DNA of 64,000 bases from Aurantiacibacter odishensis (lineage in GTDB: Bacteria > Pseudomonadota > Alphaproteobacteria > Sphingomonadales > Sphingomonadaceae), in NCBI RefSeq assembly GCF_003605195.1, contig NZ_QYOS01000025.1, forward strand, positions 1 to 64,000, read 5' to 3'. Shown piece after piece: positions 1-42,168 of this stretch. The notes under the pieces are model-generated. The model had not been told where the DNA came from, searched no databases, and saw only the letters and a list, made by a program, of their open reading frames with translations. Position numbers and translations under genes: made by a program. The first letter of the stretch is position 1; the number at the start of each line of letters is the position of its first letter.

Positions 1-1193
1 CCGTAAGTGATTTCCACGCGGCGGTTCTGCAGTTCGCGCACGCCGTCTGCGGTGGGCACGCGGGGCATGCTTTCGCCGAAGGCTTCGCTGGAGATGCGAC
101 CGCCCGGAATGCCGCGACCGGTGAGGTATTCGCGGACCGAGGCGTTACGACGCTCTGCCAGACCCATGTTGTACTCGACCGAGCCGGAGCGGTCGGTGTG
201 GCCGGCCAGCATGATGGCTGCGGTACCGCAATCGCCGTAGGCGGTGATGGCGGAGTTGAGCACGGTTGCTGCTTCCGGAGTGATGGTGGACTCGTCCCAA
301 TCGAAGAACACGATGTAGGGGCCCTGCTCGCAGACCGGAGCCGGCGGCGGAGGCGGCGGCGGCGGCGGAGGCGGCGGGGGCGGAGGAGGCGGCGGCGGGG
401 GCGGCGGCGGCGGAGGCGGCGGGGGAGCGTCGTTGCCACCCAGCAGGAACCGCAGGCCCAGCGTACCGGAGTGCTGGTTGAAATCCGTCGTCATCGTGAC
501 GGGCAGCACCTGCTCAAACTGATATTCCGGCTCGTCGAAAAAGCCGCGATACTTGTATTCCGCGAACAGCTGCACGTTGTCAGACAGGTTGCCCGACACA
601 CCGACGATGCCCTGGTAGGCGAAATCGGAATCATTGTCGTCAACGAGCTGCACGTTGCTTGGGCGGTAGTCGAGGTCGGCTGCCATCACACCTGCACCGA
701 CACCGATGTAGGGTTCGATGCCACCCAGCTGGAAGTCGTACAGTGCATTCAGGAAGACGCTGTAGGTCGTCACATCGCCCTGACCGTCGGCCAGAAATGC
801 GCCGATCGACGTGTTGGTAGGCTCACCGCGCAGCAGAGTGCGACCAAGGTCGCTATCATCGAGGGGGGTGCCACCGACAACAAGGCCTCGGTGATAATCG
901 ATGTCCATCTTGGCGTAGCTGCCGTCTACTTCCAGGCGGAAGCCATTGTCGAAAGCGTAGCCGAGTTGTGCACCGGCAGTCCAACCGACGCCGACATTCG
1001 TCTCGAACTCGTAGTTCGTACCGCCAGGAATGGCAGGAACACCAGCCGCTGGTACAGTTTCGGTGAACTCACCTTCGTTCTGGGCATTCTCATTGGTGAC
1101 CACGCCACCACTGACACCGATATAGGCCTGCGCGTGGGCGGTTGCCGGAAGGGCAAGCGCGGCCACCGAGGCGCCGATCAATAGCTTCTTCAT
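1..1193 (-). CDS. OmpA-family outer membrane protein (3' end cut by window)
   Basis: Outer-membrane beta-barrel protein joined to a periplasmic OmpA/MotB-type peptidoglycan-binding domain. The ATG at 1193 gives a signal peptide (MKKLLIGASVAALALPATAHA, cleavage before QAY). A barrel domain of about 220 residues follows, ending near RFLLGG. A run of 28 prolines then links to a C-terminal OmpA domain (VFFDWDESTIT near its start, later AGHTDRSGS and NRRVEITYG). The conserved Asp and Arg of the TDRSG and NRRVE motifs are present. The reading frame runs off the left edge just after NRRVEITYG, so only a short tail is missing. The overlapping plus-strand frame is a shadow. Role inferred: outer membrane stability and cell-wall tethering. 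The family is certain, the specific role is not. Confidence 0.9.
   Translation of the reverse strand, partial: MKKLLIGASVAALALPATAHAQAYIGVSGGVVTNENAQNEGEFTETVPAAGVPAIPGGTNYEFETNVGVGWTAGAQLGYAFDNGFRLEVDGSYAKMDIDYHRGLVVGGTPLDDSDLGRTLLRGEPTNTSIGAFLADGQGDVTTYSVFLNALYDFQLGGIEPYIGVGAGVMAADLDYRPSNVQLVDDNDSDFAYQGIVGVSGNLSDNVQLFAEYKYRGFFDEPEYQFEQVLPVTMTTDFNQHSGTLGLRFLLGGNDAPPPPPPPPPPPPPPPPPPPPPPPPPPPPAPVCEQGPYIVFFDWDESTITPEAATVLNSAITAYGDCGTAAIMLAGHTDRSGSVEYNMGLAERRNASVREYLTGRGIPGGRISSEAFGESMPRVPTADGVRELQNRRVEITY
342..425 (-). repeat. Polyproline tract (28 consecutive Pro codons)
   Basis: Every minus-strand codon from 425 down to 342 is CCN (mostly CCG, with CCT and CCC interspersed), giving 28 prolines in a row in the linker of the OmpA-family protein. 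Proline-rich linkers are usual in sphingomonad OmpA proteins, but a run this long should stall ribosomes without EF-P. The near-repetitive GC triplets could also slip in replication or sequencing. Confidence 0.95.
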
Positions 1194-1359
1194 AGTTGTC
1201 CTCATTACGATCAACGAGATACTTCCCGTATCCCCTGGTCAATCGCAGGCTTACACCATTGTTCCGGGGTTGGGAACAAATCGATCAAAGCCCGCAAAAC
1301 TGTTGCGCAAAATCCACATTAACCAAACCGACGGTTGCGCCCGCCATCGGGAGGCATTT

Positions 1360-2544
1360 CTAGAAGGCAGAAAGCCCGGTGATCGCGCGCCCCAGAATGA
1401 GCGCATGGACATCGTGCGTGCCTTCGTAAGTGTTGACGGTTTCCAGGTTCAGCATGTGACGCATGACCTGATATTCCTCGGAAATTCCGTTGCCTCCGTG
1501 CATATCACGCGCAGCCCGCGCGATATCCAGCGCCTTGCCCACATTGTTCCGCTTCACGATGGAAATCATTTCCGGGGCGAAGCGGCCCTCGTCCATCAGG
1601 CGGCCGACGCGCAGCGAACCCTGCAGCCCGAGCGCGATCTCGGTCGCCATGTCGGCCAGCTTCAACTGGTAGAGTTGCTTGGAGGCGAGGGGCACGCCGA
1701 ACTGATGCCGGTCGAGCCCGTACTGGCGCGCCGCGTGGTAGCAGAACTCGGCCGCGCCCATGCTGCCCCAGGAAATACCGTAGCGGGCACGGTTGAGGCA
1801 GCCGAACGGGCCCTTGATACCCTCGACGTTCGGCAACAGCGCGTCTGCGGGCAGTTTCACCTCGTCCATCTGGATCATTCCGGTGGTACTGGCGCGCAGC
1901 GAAAGCTTGCCCTGTATCTTGGGCGCTTCCAGTCCCTTCATCCCCTTTTCCAGAACGAAGCCGCGCACCTTGTCTCCGTGCGCTTCGCTCTTGGCCCAGA
2001 CCACGAAGACATCGGCGAAGGGCGAATTGGAAATCCACGTCTTCGCGCCCGAAAGCAAATAGCCGTCGCCATCCTTCTTGGCGTAGGTCCGCATTCCGGC
2101 AGGGTCGGAGCCTGCGTCGGGTTCGGTCAGTCCGAAGCAGCCGATCAGTTCACCCGACGCGAGGCCGGGCAAATATTTCGCGTGCTGCTCTGCCGAGCCG
2201 TAAGCGTGGATCGGGTACATCACGAGGGAGGACTGCACGCTCGCCATCGAGCGATAGCCGCTGTCCACCCGCTCGATCTCTCGCGCGACGAGGCCGTAGG
2301 CGACATAGCTGGCGCCTGCGCCGCCGAATTCTTCCGGAATGGTCACGCCGAGAATCCCGGCCTGACCCATCAGCGGGAACAACTCGCTGGCGTCCGCCTC
2401 ATTCGCGAAATCGTCGATCACGCGGGTCTGCAGCGTGCCTTGCGCAAAACCGTGAGCGGCGTCGCGCACCATGCGCTCGTCCTCGGTCAGCTGGTCATCG
2501 ATGTTGAAGGGGTCGGCCCAGTCGAAAGGCACCATATCGGCCAT
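1360..2544 (-). CDS. gcdH: Glutaryl-CoA dehydrogenase-like acyl-CoA dehydrogenase
   Basis: FAD-dependent acyl-CoA dehydrogenase of 394 residues, most like glutaryl-CoA dehydrogenase, which oxidises and decarboxylates glutaryl-CoA to crotonyl-CoA in lysine and tryptophan breakdown. The N-terminal helical domain has the IPEEFGGAG segment, the middle beta domain has [12 protein letters not shown] and WISNSPFAD, and the C-terminal domain has [10 protein letters not shown]. The expected catalytic glutamate lies in [10 protein letters not shown] (about E374). The short, non-extended C-terminus also fits GcdH. It stands alone, with no CoA-transferase or hydratase beside it. A different short-chain acyl-CoA dehydrogenase is possible but less likely. 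Confidence 0.88.
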
Positions 2545-2608
2545 GGCAAATAGTCTCCTTTGAAACCGCCCTACTTAGTCGGGCGGGGCGGGGCAAGGAG
2601 GCTTGCGC

Positions 2609-2989
2609 TCAATGAGACCTTTTGTTCGCTTCGGACATCATCTGGATGAGCTTGTCCGGCGGGCAGGGCTTCGACGCCGTCAGCGCGTTGGGATAACGCT
2701 TGGCGATCTCGCATTCCGAGATGTGCCCGGAATGGAAGATGATCGGCACGCCTGCCTCGGTCAGCACGTCGGCCAGAGGGAAAACCTCGCCATCGGCGGT
2801 CATCACGTCGAGAATGGCGAAGTCGGGCATTTCCTGATCTATGGCGATGAATGCATGGCCCTTGTTGGCGTAGGGGCCTTCGACACGGTAGCCCATGTCG
2901 CGCACGGTCTCGGACAGGTCGAGAGCGATGATCACCTCGTCTTCCACCACCAGAACGGTGGGCTGATCAGTTGCTGCCTGACTTGCCAT
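2609..2989 (-). CDS. Single-domain response regulator
   Basis: Stand-alone receiver domain of 126 residues with no output domain. Visible residues are the acidic pocket (VVEDE), the phospho-acceptor Asp (AILDVMTADG) and the conserved Lys (TASKPCPP). The beta4 region reads IIFHSGH, at the place where sphingomonad stress regulators carry the FATGUY motif, so this is a diverged relative of that group. The start is ATG 2989, with AAGG about 9 bases upstream. The frame is open further upstream to 3100 without a ribosome site. No kinase is adjacent, so the partner is unknown. A role in the general stress phosphorelay is possible but not shown. Confidence 0.85.
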   Translation of the reverse strand: MASQAATDQPTVLVVEDEVIIALDLSETVRDMGYRVEGPYANKGHAFIAIDQEMPDFAILDVMTADGEVFPLADVLTEAGVPIIFHSGHISECEIAKRYPNALTASKPCPPDKLIQMMSEANKRSH

Positions 2990-3062
2990 ACACGTACCTT
3001 TCTCTCGCGCCCGAACACGGCGCGGCTCTACACTTACGCGGCAAGGGGGCGCGGGTTCCCGC

Positions 3063-3755
3063 TCAGGACGTGGCGCCGAACTTCGCCTCGTAGGCGGCAA
3101 GGTCGCCCGACTGGAGCAACTTTGCCTGTTCTACCCAGCTGTCGCGCCTGATGCGGCCCTGGAACCGGCCCAGTTTAGCGTCGATCCGGTCGATATCGGC
3201 ATCGGACCAGCCGGCAATCTGCGCGAAGCTGGTCACGCCGTGCTCGGCCAGCAGGGTGACGAGCTTCGGACCGACGCCCTTGATCCGGCGCAGGTCGTCG
3301 CCCGCAGCGGTATCGGGCGCCGCGGCAGGGGCGGGGGTTGGCGTCGGGGCAGGTGCGGGTGCGGGGGAGGGCGGCACTTCCTTCATGGCTTCGCGCATGG
3401 GAACGCCGTCGCCGGTCTCGGCATCGGTGCCCAATGGCGCGGCCGCGGTGGTATCCGCATTGGCGGCGGCCGAGGTCGGGCCGGGGGACGCATCGCTGCG
3501 CGCGGCTTCCACGTCCTGCACGTCGCTGGCGGCGGGGGTGACCGAAGGCTCGGGCGGACCCGTGTCGCGCTGAGCGGCCGGCGGAGCATCGATCAGCGCC
3601 TGATTACGTTTGGCACCCTTGCTCTCGCTGTCGTCCTTTTCCTCGATCTCTACCTTGGTGCGGCGGGAGGCGACGAAGATCCACCAGGCGACCAGCAGCC
3701 CGATCACCAGTGCGATGACGATCAGGACCCAGTTTGCCTGCAACAATTCAGCCAT
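3063..3755 (-). CDS. Membrane-anchored helix-hairpin-helix protein
   Basis: A protein of 230 residues with one N-terminal membrane segment (residues about 8-28). A long low-complexity Pro/Ala/Thr-rich linker follows (about 50-150), then a C-terminal helix-hairpin-helix domain starting at DDLRRIKGVGPKLVTLL and ending with FQGRIRRDSWVEQAK. In alphaproteobacteria this domain type also occurs fused to L21 and to the NuoE subunit. ATG 3755 is preferred over ATG 3761, because the GGAG element is about 9 bases from the former and only 3 from the latter. It lies 18 bases after the small membrane peptide gene on the same strand and is probably cotranscribed. Function unknown. Confidence 0.75.
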   Translation of the reverse strand: MAELLQANWVLIVIALVIGLLVAWWIFVASRRTKVEIEEKDDSESKGAKRNQALIDAPPAAQRDTGPPEPSVTPAASDVQDVEAARSDASPGPTSAAANADTTAAAPLGTDAETGDGVPMREAMKEVPPSPAPAPAPTPTPAPAAAPDTAAGDDLRRIKGVGPKLVTLLAEHGVTSFAQIAGWSDADIDRIDAKLGRFQGRIRRDSWVEQAKLLQSGDLAAYEAKFGATS

Positions 3756-3773
3756 GTGCATTTCTCCGATAAA

Positions 3774-3866
3774 TCACGTGTCCCGGCCCCAGATGGCCCA
3801 GCCGAGGCCCAGCCCGATCGCATAGGCGAACAGCATCAGCACCAGTACTTCCATCCAGATCGGCAT
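3774..3866 (-). CDS. Small membrane peptide (30 residues)
   Basis: Short frame starting at ATG 3866 behind a good AAGGA ribosome site, coding a 30-residue peptide that is almost one hydrophobic helix: MPIWMEVLVLMLFAYAIG, then LGLGWAIWGRDT. It sits between the OmpA-domain gene and the helix-hairpin-helix gene on the same strand, with 18 bases to the latter. It is too short for normal gene calling. Its support is the ribosome site, the clean transmembrane pattern with glycine spacing, and the operon position. Function unknown; it may partner the neighbouring membrane protein. Confidence 0.6.
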   Translation of the reverse strand: MPIWMEVLVLMLFAYAIGLGLGWAIWGRDT

Positions 3867-3931
3867 GAGGTTCCTTTGCAGCAGGTGGGACGATTCGGGC
3901 AAATCGCCCGGTCTTGTTTGCGATTGAAAGC

Positions 3932-4672
3932 CTAGCGCGGTCCGGGCGTGTCGACCGGGGTGGGAAGCAGCGGCTGGGTGGAAACCACTGCGAATTCGAT
4001 ACGACGGTTGGCAGGGTCGGTCGGTTCCAGCCCCTCCACCGGTTCGGCAGAGCCTTCCCCGTTCACACGTACTTCGTCCGCAGGGATTCCGCGCCGCACC
4101 AGCGCCTGCTTCACCGCCTGGGCGCGCTCTCGTGAAAGCATGATGTTGCGTTCCTCCGGGCCGGAGCGGTCGGTATGCCCGCTCACCTCGATCACCGCCC
4201 CTAGGCAGGGGCGCAGGGCGCGGGCGACTTCGTCGATCAGCGACTGGCTGCCTGCATCGATCTGGGCCGAGCCTTCCTCGAACCGGATGGTGCGCGCGCG
4301 CAGCAGGGCCTGCACGTCTTCCTGGCAGTGGAGCGGGTTGAAGTGCTGCTCCACCATCATGTCGCCATCGGACCAACTGATGCCGCCCACGCCGGGCAGC
4401 CGCGCGACGGCGTGGGCAATTTCGTTGCGCGTGGCCTCGTCCAGCCCCTCCGCCCCGGTGAGGACGACGTGGCGGCTGGGAAAGCCGTTGGGCGTTCGGA
4501 AATGCGCCTCCACCTGGCCGCCTCCCCCTGCCTCGGCAATGGCATCAGCAGCGGGCGCGGAAATGCGTTCCACCACGGCGGGCGCGTTGGCGCTGCCGAT
4601 GGTCACGGCAAGGACGAAGCAGGCCAGGAGGCCCAGGCACACGGCGACATAAGGCTTGCGCAGGAATTTCAT
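3932..4672 (-). CDS. OmpA-domain envelope protein with BON-like N-terminal region
   Basis: A protein of 246 residues with an N-terminal signal or anchor segment (residues 8-25). A middle region near residues 55-110 (HVVLTGAEGLDEATR, ARLPGV) has the look of BON/OmpA-associated modules. The C-terminal OmpA-like peptidoglycan-binding domain shows RFEEGSAQID, SGHTDRSGPEERN and ANRRIEFAV. The key Asp and Arg for diaminopimelate binding are present. ATG 4672 has AAGG about 8 bases upstream; the TTG at 4678 is rejected. The ribosome site and start lie in a perfect 13-bp inverted repeat, annotated separately. It is likely a periplasmic cell-wall linker. Confidence 0.82.
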   Translation of the reverse strand: MKFLRKPYVAVCLGLLACFVLAVTIGSANAPAVVERISAPAADAIAEAGGGGQVEAHFRTPNGFPSRHVVLTGAEGLDEATRNEIAHAVARLPGVGGISWSDGDMMVEQHFNPLHCQEDVQALLRARTIRFEEGSAQIDAGSQSLIDEVARALRPCLGAVIEVSGHTDRSGPEERNIMLSRERAQAVKQALVRRGIPADEVRVNGEGSAEPVEGLEPTDPANRRIEFAVVSTQPLLPTPVDTPGPR

Positions 4673-4684
4673 GCGCAAGCCTTA
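4650..4684 (-). promoter_or_regulatory. Perfect 13-bp inverted repeat over ribosome site and start codon
   Basis: Arms TAAGGCTTGCGCA (4650-4662) and its exact complement (4672-4684) flank 9 bases. In the minus-strand mRNA, the AAGG ribosome site and the A of the AUG lie in one arm, and codons for the LRKPY stretch form the other. The predicted hairpin would hide the ribosome site of the OmpA-domain gene. Confidence 0.6.
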
Positions 4685-4691
4685 GCGCGAG

Positions 4692-6314
4692 TTATCGGCG
4701 CGCGTCGAGTGTCTGCGCCAATCCGGCAAGTTGCAGAAATTCCTCGCGCCAGTAGCCATCCTGACGGCCTGCCAGCGAGACGGCCTCGTCATAGCCGAAG
4801 CCGTTCAGCAAGCTGTCTCCGCGCAGGTTCTGCCCATAGGCGGCAACGGCTGCGACGAAGGCCATGTCGCCGCGTGCGGGCCGTGCGTTGGCGAGCATTC
4901 GGCTGGAGACGGGGCGCTGGATGAGCCGCGAACGATCCTGCCCCGGAAGCTTGTAGCGAAGCTGCACGAAGGCGACCTCTTCGCCCGAGCCGCTCTGGCG
5001 CATCACGCTGCGCTGGTTGTCATCGTATCGGCGCGGACCGATCCAGCCCTTGCCGCCCGCAGGGACGATCTCGTACAGCGCCGTGACCTGGTGCCCTGCG
5101 CCGATGTCGCCTGCATCCACCGTATCGTTGTTAAAATCCTCTTCGGCGAGGACGCGGTTCTCGTAGCCGATGAGGCGATATTGCGAGACGTGGGCGGGAT
5201 TGAACTCCACCTGGATCTTCACGTCCTGCGCGATGGTGAAGAGGGTCGACTGCATCTCGTCCGAGAGAACCTTGCGCGCTTCCATCGCGCTGTCGATGTA
5301 GGCGTAGTTGCCATTCCCGTGGTCGGCGATCTGCTCCATCATCGCTTCGTTGTAATTGCCCTGGCCGAAGCCCAGCGTGGTGAGGGTGATGCCGCTGTCG
5401 CGCTGGTTCTCGATCATCTGGACGAGGCTGTCCTGATCGGAGATGCCGACGTTGAAATCGCCGTCAGTCGCCAGGATCACGCGGTTCACGCCGCCTTCGA
5501 TGAAGGCCTTGCGCGCCATGTCGTAGGCGAGGCGTAAGCCCGCAGCCCCGGCGGTGGAGCCGCCCGCTTCGAGCCTGTCGAGCGCGCGGCGGATGGCGCG
5601 CTCGTCGTTCGTCGGCTCCAGCACCACGCCGGTTGCGCCTGCATAGACCACGATGGAAACCCGGTCCTGCCGCCCAAGTTCGCCGGCGAGCTGGCGCATG
5701 GCGGTTTTCACCAGCGGCAGCTTGTCGGCATCGGACATTGAGCCCGAGACATCGAGCAGGAAGACGAGGTTGGCCGCCGGGCGCTGGCTTCGCGGCAGGT
5801 CATAGCCGCGCAGGCCCACGCGCAGGATGCGGGTCTCCGGGTTCCACGGCGTGATCGCCATGTCCGTGGTGACGGAGAATGGCTGGCTGCGGCTTTCCGG
5901 CGCGGGATAGTCGTAGCGGAAGTAGTTGATCAGCTCTTCTGTCCGCACGGCGGCCTCCGGCGGCATCTGCCCCTGAGAGAGAAAACGGCGGACGTTGGCA
6001 TAGGCGCCGGTATCGACATCGACCGAGAAAGTGGACACCGGCTCTGCCGCCACCAGCTTCACCGCGCCGATCGCTTCTCCGTCGTAGCGTTCGGTGCTTG
6101 TCGGGACGTAGTGGGACATGACCGGGGGCGGGGCCATCGCATATTCGGCATCGGCCATGGCGCGTTCCGCCATCATCGGCTCCTGTACATCGTAGGATGC
6201 AAGGTGCTCCGTCTTCTGTGCGCCTTCGTTCTGTGCGCAGGCAACCAGCGTCATCACCATGGCCGTGGCGGTTAGTGCACCTGCCATGCCGGAAATTCGT
6301 GCCGTCTTGGTCAT
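4692..6314 (-). CDS. VWA-domain lipoprotein (YfbK type)
   Basis: Predicted lipoprotein of 540 residues. A signal peptide ends in the lipobox VAC (TLVACAQNE), so it should be membrane-anchored and face the periplasm. An N-terminal YfbK-like region (FSVDVDTGAYANVRRFL, EELINYFRYDYP) precedes a von Willebrand factor A domain with an intact metal site (FLLDVSGSMS, then ATDGDFNVG). A DUF3520-like C-terminal region ends it. ATG 6314 has GGAGAG upstream, while the longer frame to 6362 lacks one. VWA proteins bind ligands through a bound divalent metal; the ligand here is unknown. It stands just upstream of the OmpA-domain gene on the same strand. Confidence 0.85.
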   Translation of the reverse strand: MTKTARISGMAGALTATAMVMTLVACAQNEGAQKTEHLASYDVQEPMMAERAMADAEYAMAPPPVMSHYVPTSTERYDGEAIGAVKLVAAEPVSTFSVDVDTGAYANVRRFLSQGQMPPEAAVRTEELINYFRYDYPAPESRSQPFSVTTDMAITPWNPETRILRVGLRGYDLPRSQRPAANLVFLLDVSGSMSDADKLPLVKTAMRQLAGELGRQDRVSIVVYAGATGVVLEPTNDERAIRRALDRLEAGGSTAGAAGLRLAYDMARKAFIEGGVNRVILATDGDFNVGISDQDSLVQMIENQRDSGITLTTLGFGQGNYNEAMMEQIADHGNGNYAYIDSAMEARKVLSDEMQSTLFTIAQDVKIQVEFNPAHVSQYRLIGYENRVLAEEDFNNDTVDAGDIGAGHQVTALYEIVPAGGKGWIGPRRYDDNQRSVMRQSGSGEEVAFVQLRYKLPGQDRSRLIQRPVSSRMLANARPARGDMAFVAAVAAYGQNLRGDSLLNGFGYDEAVSLAGRQDGYWREEFLQLAGLAQTLDARR

Positions 6315-16684: not shown

Positions 16685-18874
<2,190 letters not shown>

Positions 18875-18896
18875 GGCGGGGGATATGGGTGACGGG

Positions 18897-18911
18897 GAAC
18901 GGATTGGCAAC
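18897..18911 (-). promoter_or_regulatory. Possible LexA (SOS) box upstream of uvrB
   Basis: The minus strand reads GTTG-N7-GTTC, seven of eight bases of the alphaproteobacterial LexA direct repeat GTTC-N7-GTTC, ending 23 bases before the uvrB ATG. uvrB is SOS-controlled in many bacteria, but a one-mismatch site is frequent by chance. Confidence 0.35.
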
Positions 18912-19028
18912 GTGGCTTTGTGTATTGCCTTGGCCAAGCGCGTTGGCAGGTAGGTTCATAACCGTTACACCCATTGTCCGAAGAAACAGGGCAGCACCAT
19001 TTGCGGCCCGCCACGAAAGGGAATTTTC

Positions 19029-19574
19029 ATGCGCCTTATCCATACCCTGCCGCTGATTGCCGGCCTTGCCCTTGCCGCTTGCGGCGATTCCGGCACGGTG
19101 GAGGATCCCGCCAATAATCCCGAGGGCGTGGCAAACGCGATGGCCAACCTGCCCAAGCCCGAAGCGGGCGAATACCAGACGACCGGCGAACTGGTGGAAT
19201 TCGAAGTGCCCGGCATGGCCGAGGACGAGATCGAGATGGCGCGCACCTTCATGGCCGCCATGTTCACCGAGCCGCAGAGCCAGTGCATCACTGCCGAGCA
19301 GGCCGAGGAAGGCTATGAAGGCATGATCGGCGACATGGGGCAGGACAACGAGGCCTGCGAGATGACCGCTTTCAACGCCACTTCCGACGGCTTTAACGCC
19401 ACGATGAACTGCGACGACGGGCAGGGCAACGTCGGCTCCATGACCTATGAAGGGCAAGTGACGAGCACCAGCATGGATGCCACCATGACGGTCGATGGCA
19501 ACGATCCGAACATGGGCTCGATGCGCATGGTCGTGCGGATGCAGACAGAGCGCGTGGGGGAATGCGCGGCATAA
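19029..19574 (+). CDS. DUF3617-type lipoprotein, copy 1
   Basis: A 181-residue lipoprotein with lipobox LAAC (cysteine 18). The mature part has the layout of DUF3617 proteins: a PKPEAGEYQTTGELVEF opening strand, QCITAEQAEE, CEMTAFN and MNCDD with paired cysteines, and TERVGEC at the end. The function of the family is unknown; members are exported to the envelope. The second copy begins 152 bases downstream on the same strand, and the two share layout throughout. The gene is divergent from uvrB. Confidence 0.82.
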   Translation: MRLIHTLPLIAGLALAACGDSGTVEDPANNPEGVANAMANLPKPEAGEYQTTGELVEFEVPGMAEDEIEMARTFMAAMFTEPQSQCITAEQAEEGYEGMIGDMGQDNEACEMTAFNATSDGFNATMNCDDGQGNVGSMTYEGQVTSTSMDATMTVDGNDPNMGSMRMVVRMQTERVGECAA

Positions 19575-40039: not shown

Positions 40040-40099
40040 TTGGCGATTGCGAGGGATTACAGTCATTTAACTTAAAGAGCCGAGATTTGCTCGTCACAC

Positions 40100-40139
40100 C
40101 TCCTGCAGGAACGGCGCGGTGCCGTTTCGTTTGCAGGAG
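40100..40139 (+). promoter_or_regulatory. Two-tier hairpin covering the ribosome site of the 51-residue peptide gene
   Basis: CTCCTGCA (40100-40107) is the exact complement of TGCAGGAG (40132-40139), which contains the AGGAG ribosome site. Inside, AACGGC (40110-40115) pairs with GCCGTT (40121-40126) around a five-base loop. If formed, this structure would shut off translation of the peptide starting at 40146. An AT-rich near-palindrome (TTTAA-C-TTAAA, 40066-40076) lies upstream and may mark the promoter. Confidence 0.55.
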
Positions 40140-40145
40140 ACTACA

Positions 40146-40301
40146 ATGAAGCTTCCCAAGATCGATCTGGCGAGTCTGCCCGATCTCGACACCCTGACGG
40201 GCCTGTTCGGCTCCATCCGTACCCCCGGCCATGACGACACGATCATCGTGATCGCCACGGTCGTCTACGACACCAACCCTCCCGGCAGCGGCCTGATCTG
40301 A
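40146..40301 (+). CDS. 51-residue peptide, candidate precursor or signal peptide
   Basis: The start is ATG 40146, six bases after a strong AGGAG. Product: MKLPKIDLASLPDLDTLTG, a short GLFGSIRTPGHDD turn, then a hydrophobic stretch TIIVIATVVYDT and the tail NPPGSGLI. It has no cysteines and no signal peptide. The leader-like amphipathic half followed by a distinct C-terminal half recalls precursor peptides that are modified after translation, but I recognise no known class. The gene ahead ends 106 bases upstream, and two unknown genes follow at 11 bases and then with overlap, suggesting one unit. Function unknown. Confidence 0.62.
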   Translation: MKLPKIDLASLPDLDTLTGLFGSIRTPGHDDTIIVIATVVYDTNPPGSGLI

Positions 40302-40312
40302 GGTCCGGGGCG

Positions 40313-41281
40313 ATGCAGGTTCATCCCGACATCGCCGCGTTGCGGAGCGACCGCGCTCCGCAACGCGAGGCCCAGGAAGCGATGCTTGCAGCGGGCGAGG
40401 CCTGGGCGAGGGAGCCGGGAGCCGCCGACCTGCAGTCCGCTCTGCGTGCGTTCGGCGCAGGAGCCCCGCTGGAAGCGTGCCCGATGCTGGAGGCGATGTT
40501 CACGGGCAGCGGCGAAGCAGAGCGGCTGATGGACCTGATGAGCCGCCATTACTGCCGCGCCATGGCCGCGCACCCCATCGGCCATCCGCCGTTCCGTCAG
40601 GGGTTCGATGGCACCTCCACCTCCATACTCCTTGCAAGTTCAGGTCGCGCGCAACTGATGTTGCAGGCAAAAGAGCCGGGCACGATGATCCATCCGGGAT
40701 ACATGTTCTGTGACGCTGTGCGCTTCGATGCCGTGCTGGGCGGAGCGGCCGATGCACGGATCGTCCGCATGGCGCGGCGCGACGGCACCACCGCGGGATT
40801 CTCGCAGGAGTCGCTGGTCCTGCGTGCCGGTCATCGCCTCGCTCTCGATCTCGCCAGTGAGACACTCGTGGTGGACGAGGTGCAGAGCCGGTTCGTCGTG
40901 CTGCGCCTGCTGCGCACCGCTGCCGATCCGCAGCCGGGCCGTGAATACGATGCGGCCAGCGGCAATCTGATGCACCAGAGCGCCGGGCGCATCGGCACCA
41001 GTCGGCGCGAGGCGACCATCGCCTTGCTTGGCCGGATGGGCCGCACCGACGCCGTCCCCGCCATGGCGCGCGTCGCGCTTGAAGAGGGAGATGTGTCGAT
41101 GCGCTGGCAAGCCTTGCGAGAGGCGCTGGCTCTAGACACGGCGACGGGATTCTGCGCCCTCAACACCGTGGCCCGCCGCAAGGACGATCCGCTGGCACGC
41201 GAAGCGGGCGCGCTGCGGGCGCGATTGCTCGAAACCTATCCCATGCTTGCCGAACTGGAGGCCGAACAATGCCCCGCGTGA
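40313..41281 (+). CDS. Unknown protein A of the peptide cassette (cupin-like barrel plus helical tail, inferred)
   Basis: A 322-residue protein I do not recognise. Residues 1-95 look helical (EAMLAAGEAWAREPG, LMDLMSRHYCRAM). Residues 100-205 look like a beta barrel (TSTSILLASSGRAQLML, SLVLRAGHRLALDL, TLVVDEVQSRFVVLRLL). Residues 230-320 look like HEAT-type helices (REATIALLGRMGRTDAVPAMARVAL, SMRWQALREALALD). The barrel part lines up by pattern with protein B but lacks its histidine cluster. No signal peptide or membrane helix. It starts at ATG 40313, 11 bases after the small peptide gene, and overlaps protein B by 13 bases. Function unknown. Confidence 0.7.
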   Translation: MQVHPDIAALRSDRAPQREAQEAMLAAGEAWAREPGAADLQSALRAFGAGAPLEACPMLEAMFTGSGEAERLMDLMSRHYCRAMAAHPIGHPPFRQGFDGTSTSILLASSGRAQLMLQAKEPGTMIHPGYMFCDAVRFDAVLGGAADARIVRMARRDGTTAGFSQESLVLRAGHRLALDLASETLVVDEVQSRFVVLRLLRTAADPQPGREYDAASGNLMHQSAGRIGTSRREATIALLGRMGRTDAVPAMARVALEEGDVSMRWQALREALALDTATGFCALNTVARRKDDPLAREAGALRARLLETYPMLAELEAEQCPA

Positions 41282-42168
41282 TCCAATACGAAGACAGTGC
41301 AGCCTGCGACCTTGGCGAATGCATCGATGCGCTGGAGGCGGAAGGCTTCCGGCCATTCGAGGAAGAGAGCCTGCTCCACGGCGCGAAATGGCTGCGACGC
41401 CTTGCCAACAACCGCAGTTTCCTCGGCGACATGATGCTGGAGGAACTGAAAGCGGGCGTCGACGTGGCGGAGGATGCCAGCAGCTATGGTCCGCAGGTGG
41501 TCATGCTGTCGCCGCTGGGCCGCGAATACTACATGCGCGCAAATTTCTGGCCGAGCGCGGACGAGCACATGTTCCGCGCCAGCGGATCATCGGCCTTCAG
41601 CTACGAATTGCCGCACGATCACAATTTCGATTTCCTCACCGTCGGCTATTTCGGCCCCGGCTATTCAAGCGACTACTACGAATACGATTACGACAAGGTG
41701 GCAGGCGCCATCGGCGAAAAGGCCGGGCTGCGCTTCGTCGAACGCTCCACGCTCGATCCCGGCAAGCTGATGCATTACCGCGCGCACCTCGACGTCCATT
41801 CGCAACTGCCGCCCGAAAGCCTCTCGGTGTCGATCAACATCATGCACGCCAGCGGCGCGCAGGGGCTGCTCGATCAATACCGCTTCGACGTGGAGAAGGA
41901 CGAGATCGCGGGCGTCATCAGTCCGGGCGGGAACGAGACCTTTCTGCGCGTGGCCGTAGGGCTGGGGAGCGAGGATGCGCTCGACCTTGCTGACCGTCTC
42001 GCCCGCGCCCACCCGAGTGACCGCATGCGGCTCGTGGCATTGGAAGCGCAGGCCGGCATTCTCGACCTCAAGGAGCGCGATGACCTGTGGCGTCGCGCTG
42101 AAGACAGCGGCAGCCGTCTAGTCGCTCAGGAGGCAATACGCAGGAGAAGGGCGCTAGAGCAGGGTTAG
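41269..42168 (+). CDS. Unknown protein B of the peptide cassette (possible cupin-like metal site)
   Basis: A 299-residue protein I do not recognise. The middle contains ELPHDHNFDFLTVGYFGPGY (H116, H118) and TLDPGKLMHYRAHLDVHSQ (PG at 164-165, H169, H173, H177). The spacing is like the two cupin motifs, where histidines bind iron or another metal. The C-terminal 75 residues are helical (ALDLADRLARAHPSDRMRLVALEAQAG) and match protein A in layout, suggesting an old duplication. It overlaps protein A by 13 bases, so translation is coupled. It could be an oxygenase or isomerase acting on the small peptide, or a binding protein. This is inference only. Confidence 0.7.
   Translation: MPRVIQYEDSAACDLGECIDALEAEGFRPFEEESLLHGAKWLRRLANNRSFLGDMMLEELKAGVDVAEDASSYGPQVVMLSPLGREYYMRANFWPSADEHMFRASGSSAFSYELPHDHNFDFLTVGYFGPGYSSDYYEYDYDKVAGAIGEKAGLRFVERSTLDPGKLMHYRAHLDVHSQLPPESLSVSINIMHASGAQGLLDQYRFDVEKDEIAGVISPGGNETFLRVAVGLGSEDALDLADRLARAHPSDRMRLVALEAQAGILDLKERDDLWRRAEDSGSRLVAQEAIRRRRALEQG

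Follow-up and report, generated by a model that had tools for sequence, protein, structure and literature searches.

Organization of the peptide cassette

The analysed stretch (hereafter the window) comprises 64,000 nucleotides of a contig from Aurantiacibacter odishensis and carries on its forward strand a cassette of three genes, coding for a short peptide and for two larger proteins designated A and B. The features considered in this analysis are the following:

40100..40139 (+), RNA stem-loop directly 5' of the peptide start; its outer stem takes in GCAGGAG (40133-40139)
40146..40301 (+), peptide gene from ATG to stop end; 51 residues, precursor-like, no Cys
40152..40214 (+), leader block, peptide residues 3-23, LPKIDLASLPDLDTLTGLFGS
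40233..40271 (+), constrained hydrophobic core block, peptide residues 30-42, DDTIIVIATVVYD
40313..41281 (+), protein A gene, 322 residues; predicted degenerate thiol-dioxygenase-fold cupin (~30-224) and HEAT-like helices (227-319), no conserved His
41269..42168 (+), protein B gene, 299 residues; thiol-dioxygenase-fold cupin (~11-219) and HEAT repeats (219-298) in predicted models
41614..41622 (+), H116-D-H118 of B, presumed first two metal ligands
41797..41799 (+), H177 of B, presumed third metal ligand, within D-[VI]-H-x-Q

The layout given in the initial annotation proved exact: a strong ribosome site (GCAGGAG, 40133-40139) precedes the peptide ATG at 40146, 11 bases separate the peptide stop end from the start of A, and the first 13 bases of B are shared with A. 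None of the three products had a Pfam or NCBIfam match above cut-off. Each gene was single-copy in the genome hosting the window (3.19 Mb in 25 contigs), and the G+C content of the cassette was the same as that of the flanking DNA. Its 5' neighbours are a lysA-type decarboxylase gene and a siroheme-synthase-type gene (Pfam); on the 3' side, the opposite strand carries a small unknown gene, a ruvX-like frame (by eye) and a DUF3089 gene (Pfam). The location was recurrent, as lysA-type genes were present in 48 of 122 stretches and siroheme-synthase-type genes in 39 of 122. In L054 the cassette follows yidC-like and engB-like genes and in L055 it lies between the two, in neither case beside lysA; these gene names were assigned by eye. 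Simple scans detected neither a promoter nor a terminator flanking the cassette.

The region 40095-40150 was predicted to fold into a hairpin of -26.1 kcal/mol (z -4.99), a value equalled by none of 200 shuffles, and a longer stretch (40060-40160) gave a z of -2.09. The ribosome site of the window lies within the 3' arm. RNAalifold yielded no structure from 75 upstream regions in plain alignment, an outcome probably due to differing hairpin register among loci, and a per-locus hairpin test with shuffles was used in place of the alignment-based fold. By this test, 45 of 79 loci, including the window, had a strong hairpin ahead of the peptide (shuffles: mean 6, maximum 11 in 30 rounds), and in 43 of these 45 its 3' end was located 14-23 nt 5' of the peptide start. 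Stem sequences varied among the loci compared (window, L073-L152) and pairing was kept. The inclusion of the ribosome site in the hairpin suggests a translational control of the peptide.

Comparison of 80 peptides (window and 79 relatives) showed residues P4, L11, P12, G19 and G22 to be identical in all of them; within the core block, D31 was present in 79 and Y41 in 78, and residues 25-29 and 43-51 were variable in both sequence and length. Estimation of dN/dS from 238 close pairs gave 0.17 for the leader, 0.27 for the core, 0.44 for the linker and 0.87 for the tail, a regional pattern from which the frame is concluded to be coding. The leader-like and hydrophobic halves recognized in the initial annotation are both under constraint, and the NPPGSGLI tail singled out along with them is the least constrained region.

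The window peptide had 78 database entries including its own, all without name or 'hypothetical'. A six-frame search with a profile of the aligned peptides covered 71 loci, of which 26 were distant, 25 intermediate and 20 control stretches, with 20,393 ORFs in all. The short ORF just before A occupied all 20 top ranks, none of them from the control stretches; some of these loci belonged to genomes also represented in the model and were not independent. Top ranks included L231 and L037-L039 and, weakly, L224 (E 1.6), from another family. As judged from the sequences, a short putative precursor with a conserved leader and a distinct core lies beside enzyme-like genes, which is one criterion for RiPP loci; another, modifying-enzyme-like genes conserved together with the precursor, was likewise found.

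Predicted folds of proteins A and B

In predicted models, B is a thiol-dioxygenase fold with three conserved histidines and A is the same fold without the site. Together with alignments, these models bear out two earlier proposals, namely that A and B share a layout of barrel and HEAT repeats and that A has lost the histidine site. Homology between the two proteins was recovered by hhalign (E 1.2e-4, probability 55.6), and A looks like a degenerate paralogue of B. The cupin-like histidine pattern first assigned to B was retained in part. Among 56 B proteins, H116 and H118 were kept in 54, the other two being gapped there, and H177 in 55, with Arg in the remaining one, but H169 (16/56) and H173 (44/56) were not conserved. 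H116 and H118 were also invariant in alignments of 14 and 23 rows, as was H177 in one of these two. The set H116, H118, H177, Y170, D175, Q179 and N190 was held in members ~27-36% identical to the B protein of the window.

Searches of the scanned B proteins against Pfam (E up to 0.5-1) and NCBIfam (E up to 1) returned no oxygenase family. Three B proteins had weak matches to DUF693 (E 0.1, 0.017 and 0.2, all below cut-off), and neither a DUF692 nor a PqqD-like (RRE) domain was detected in A or B with these two libraries. A PDB-chain sequence-profile search with B retrieved mostly HEAT-type repeat proteins and no thiol-type oxygenase, so that the link to cupins comes from predicted structure; at sequence level, profile searches linked the cassette to no known family of oxygenases or of RiPPs.

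At least 14 proteins (for example P0009, P0017 and P0034) among 120 matches listed bear the name 'transposase' in public records. This assignment was rejected on the basis of the lack of such a domain, the single copy and the predicted cupin-HEAT fold. Loci L228 and L175 encode a short B and a short protein in the place of A (233-242 residues), with no room for the usual HEAT tail; their peptides are related and end in or near DPVFVIPIII.

Known thiol dioxygenases, including those of cysteine, 3-mercaptopropionate and mercaptosuccinate, the plant cysteine oxidases and ADO, resemble A and B in predicted fold and B in its three histidines. The cassette differs from them by the HEAT domain of B, the lack of an oxygenase match in Pfam or NCBIfam, the related partner devoid of a site, the co-encoded peptide (Cys-free in the window) and the Ser-His-Tyr set, which is apparently not kept. 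These enzymes are known to act on small thiols and on N-terminal Cys; if the proposal developed below is true, a HEAT-fused branch with a site-less twin would extend their chemistry to peptide natural products.

Distribution of the cassette, peptide diversity and exporters

The B search recovered 3477 database clusters at E <=0.001 among 7993 scored candidates, and the protein may accordingly serve as a handle for genome mining. The nearest named B proteins were from Aurantiacibacter, placed in family Erythrobacteraceae by the NCBI taxonomy. In the home family, a search with a distant query found B in 104 of 298 genomes; in three other families, B was present in 3/96, 10/198 and 8/196 genomes. 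It was present in 55 of 196 genomes at the level of the order, in 5 of 385 at that of the class, and in 15 of 398 in a sample of the phylum, 13 of these 15 belonging to the home family. One record (P0216), named Nocardioides plantarum, suggests that B reaches Actinomycetota. Carriage of the cassette as phage cargo drew no support from a tblastn search with this distant B, which gave no match in 50,697 phage records.

The co-occurrence of the three genes in other genomes, put forward as a check on the initial annotation, was confirmed. Peptide, A and B were found together in all 30 first loci, the window included, and among the best 80 of 317 confirmed loci found by B, which constitute the set of named relatives (Aurantiacibacter rhizosphaerae being an example of a named isolate), A was present in 80 and the peptide in 79, the exception being L108. 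The absence of the peptide from relatives with both large genes, which the initial annotation would have taken as a refutation, was not borne out by these 79 of 80, although no candidate was seen in 4 of 26 distant and 2 of 26 intermediate loci. The first peptide profile matched 14 of the 26 more divergent loci L031-L056 at E <1e-3, and ten further candidates were identified by eye; the loci devoid of one were L051, at a contig edge, and L052.

The 26 distant loci (L072, L155, L156, L157, L174, L175 and L212-L231) lie outside the home family or at its edge, L072, L212 and L231 belonging to it. A was recognized in 22 of them (not in L218, L223, L228 and L157) by a profile that included two of the 22, L072 and L156. 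A short leader-type peptide, selected among short ORFs preceded by a ribosome site and partly by eye, adjoined A-B in 22 of the 26, either before A or after B; those lacking a candidate were L213 (contig end), L218, L223 and L157. For 31 aligned peptides, which excluded L216 (identical to the L217 peptide) and L230 (nearly identical to L229) and comprised L036-L039 from the home family, most conformed by eye to [IL]-x-x-L-[DE]-x-x-V-x-x-x-G with a hydrophobic stretch after it that is often rich in I/V. Poor fits were L156a, L156b, L225, L227, L228, L175 and L229. At least one Cys was present in 15 of the 31, but none in the window peptide. The leader-type block was kept and the cores differed between classes of the phylum.

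Three tandem precursors were encountered in each of L215 and L222, and two on the Alteromonas plasmid L156, where A and B overlap again by 13 bases. A DotM-C-type protein is encoded on the same plasmid ~5 kb from the cassette (18033-19361). The 63-residue peptide of L220 (9502-9693) has the look of a double core, its segment TLFIFAAR resembling a second one, TAFIFAAQ. A-B pairs occur three times, as separate units spread over ~16 kb, in locus L226 (G1556:C1:343500-363000), which also has an exporter of the MacAB type and an ABC ATPase.

Exporters were sought with seven reference proteins covering few transporter types, in stretches of which several distant ones end at short contigs, and compared with 20 control stretches placed blind in 19 of the same genomes. 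A membrane fusion protein (MFP) with a MacB permease was present in 6 of the 24 distant genome loci (L215, L216, L217, L221, L224 and L226) and a C39-ABC exporter in one, and neither occurred in the 20 controls. A lone MFP-like match was seen in 1/24 distant loci and 2/20 controls. One exporter type or the other was thus present in seven of the 24 and absent from 17, some of them on short contigs; one of the two plasmid loci also had an exporter next to the cassette. The contrast with the controls (one-sided Fisher ~0.009, calculated by hand, or ~0.014 if L216-L218 count once) is suggestive rather than strong, the 24 loci not being independent, since L216-L218 belong to one genus and L229/L230 to another. 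Transporter types were borne out by Pfam in L072, L156, L215, L224 and part of L217. L072 carries a Peptidase_C39 ABC exporter (E 2.6e-30) and an HlyD protein divergent from the cassette, and L156 has HlyD, MacB ATPase and MacB permease genes upstream and an ABC ATPase with an ABC-2 permease directly after B. Further ABC ATPases adjoin B in L156, L215, L224 and L226; an ABC ATPase beside bacteriocin genes is a known self-protection arrangement. In the group of the window, the tested exporter types were found in 0/80 and 0/25 stretches of 3-17 kb each. No C39 peptidase (PF03412) was detected in the genome of the window by a search that was positive in 8 of 14 control genomes.

Two alternative explanations can be weighed against these data. 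A short hydrophobic peptide beside larger partners, patchily distributed outside the home family, could be the harmful member of a toxin-antitoxin-like pair, neutralized by A-B; PADLOC, a library confined to known systems, has no model matching A or B, which would leave room for it, and a role of the cassette in anti-phage defence likewise drew no support from that library. The conserved leader/core pattern, the tandem precursors, the exporters and the recurring syntenic location in the home family make it very unlikely. The second would see in B a metabolic small-thiol dioxygenase with A as partner and the peptide as a small subunit or regulator, and not as a precursor. Its predicted fold is indeed that of cysteine and 3-mercaptopropionate dioxygenases, and both the recurring location by lysA-type and siroheme-synthase-type genes and the conserved core block would suit it. 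However, the sequence of the peptide, its number (up to three) and its position relative to A-B vary with lineage, some distant loci have exporters, and the Ser-His-Tyr set, a feature of CDO-type enzymes, looks replaced by Ser-Ser-Asn in alignments inspected by eye. We regard this second explanation as improbable.

A candidate pathway of peptide modification

The reading we prefer, with a probability of roughly two in three, is that the cassette represents an undescribed RiPP-type pathway in which an A-B dimer binds the leader through A and/or HEAT repeats and B oxidizes the core. A and B would form a heterodimer, and the pseudo-enzyme A, the HEAT helices or both would hold the leader motif LPxLDxxxGxxGS. 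Fe(II) bound to B by H116, H118 and H177 would then use O2 to oxidize a residue of the hydrophobic core (DDTIIVIATVVYD in the window), after which the leader may be cleaved near G22-S23. As the window peptide contains no Cys, B, if it is its oxygenase, must act on a non-thiol residue, for which D30-D31, the aliphatic run and Y41 are conserved candidates. Loci with a MacAB or C39 exporter are likely to release a bioactive peptide. The group of the window has a conserved core and no exporter of the tested types beside the cassette, which suggests a product that probably either stays intracellular or exits by another route, such as an unlinked exporter.

The initial annotation had suggested a precursor served by a metal enzyme in two copies, one active and one not, and the proposal has gained support from the retained leader, the diverging cores, the tandem precursors, the exporters and the predicted folds of B and A. 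Several observations count against it: the tested exporter types are absent from the group of the window and from 17 of 24 distant loci, profile searches gave no link to known oxygenase or RiPP families, the distant peptides, partly selected by eye, do not all fit one motif, the home group shows a conserved core where an arms-race toxin would be expected to vary, and the Cys-free window peptide lacks the usual substrate group of the fold.

Another possible explanation is based on binding. A and B could constitute a non-catalytic or sensing complex (chaperone, immunity partner or sensor) for a peptide that would act, or signal, in unmodified form. Binding is a frequent role of HEAT repeats, A is devoid of a metal site, unmodified bacteriocins too are accompanied by exporters and ABC ATPases, and modification of the peptide is so far a proposal drawn from sequences and models. 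On the other hand, binding alone needs none of the residues held by B at ~27-36% identity (H116, H118, H177, Y170, D175, Q179 and N190), and we consider this explanation unlikely.

A broader form of the RiPP-type reading is tentative, and we would grant it somewhat less than even chances. The cassettes would then make up a new RiPP class of thousands of members, in which an iron protein of thiol-dioxygenase fold oxidizes C or S positions of a peptide and a dead copy of it serves to receive the leader. In the group of the window, the Cys-free version would make a conserved, non-antibiotic cellular peptide. Such a Sphingomonadales form, with no tested exporter adjoining, would by itself be of interest as a conserved peptide with a putative cellular role.

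The initial annotation knew of no described family with this gene set, and a literature search likewise found no description of the peptide with A and B, in a coverage that mostly excludes subscription papers and preprints. The closest parallels in outline are MNIO (DUF692) pathways with RRE partners such as pbs, in which an iron oxygenase, a separate partner taking the leader and a short precursor are associated (PMC12257519). By analogy, the cassette would work like such an oxygenase-plus-partner RiPP pathway, yet it is not a member of the MNIO/RRE family: B is predicted as a cupin and not a TIM barrel, A has the enzyme's own fold, and neither protein matches RRE or DUF692. Cupin-fold oxygenases acting on precursor peptides are described in the same report, where PbsQ and BpmG are cupin/JmjC hydroxylases of RiPP clusters (PMC12257519). 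They are of the JmjC type and represent one tailoring enzyme among several, whereas the cupin pair is the sole conserved enzyme seen in the cassette.

The leaders of some distant loci recall a further class. That of L072, '..LTLDEADVVSAGA', is of double-glycine type, ends in GA and lies beside the Peptidase_C39 ABC exporter, and the L229/L230 leader, '..ELTLEDAEFVSGGG', ends in GGG. Bacteriocins and microcins with double-glycine leaders and C39-ABC or MacAB exporters are well known, and the cassette is like them in these leaders, in the exporter of L072 and in the MacAB-type exporters and further ABC ATPases of several loci. It is unlike them in the constancy of the A-B pair and, in the window, in having no adjoining exporter of the tested types. 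In L229, the GGG-leader peptide and A-B are preceded by a frame resembling an NRPS adenylation protein (82-5166, by eye).
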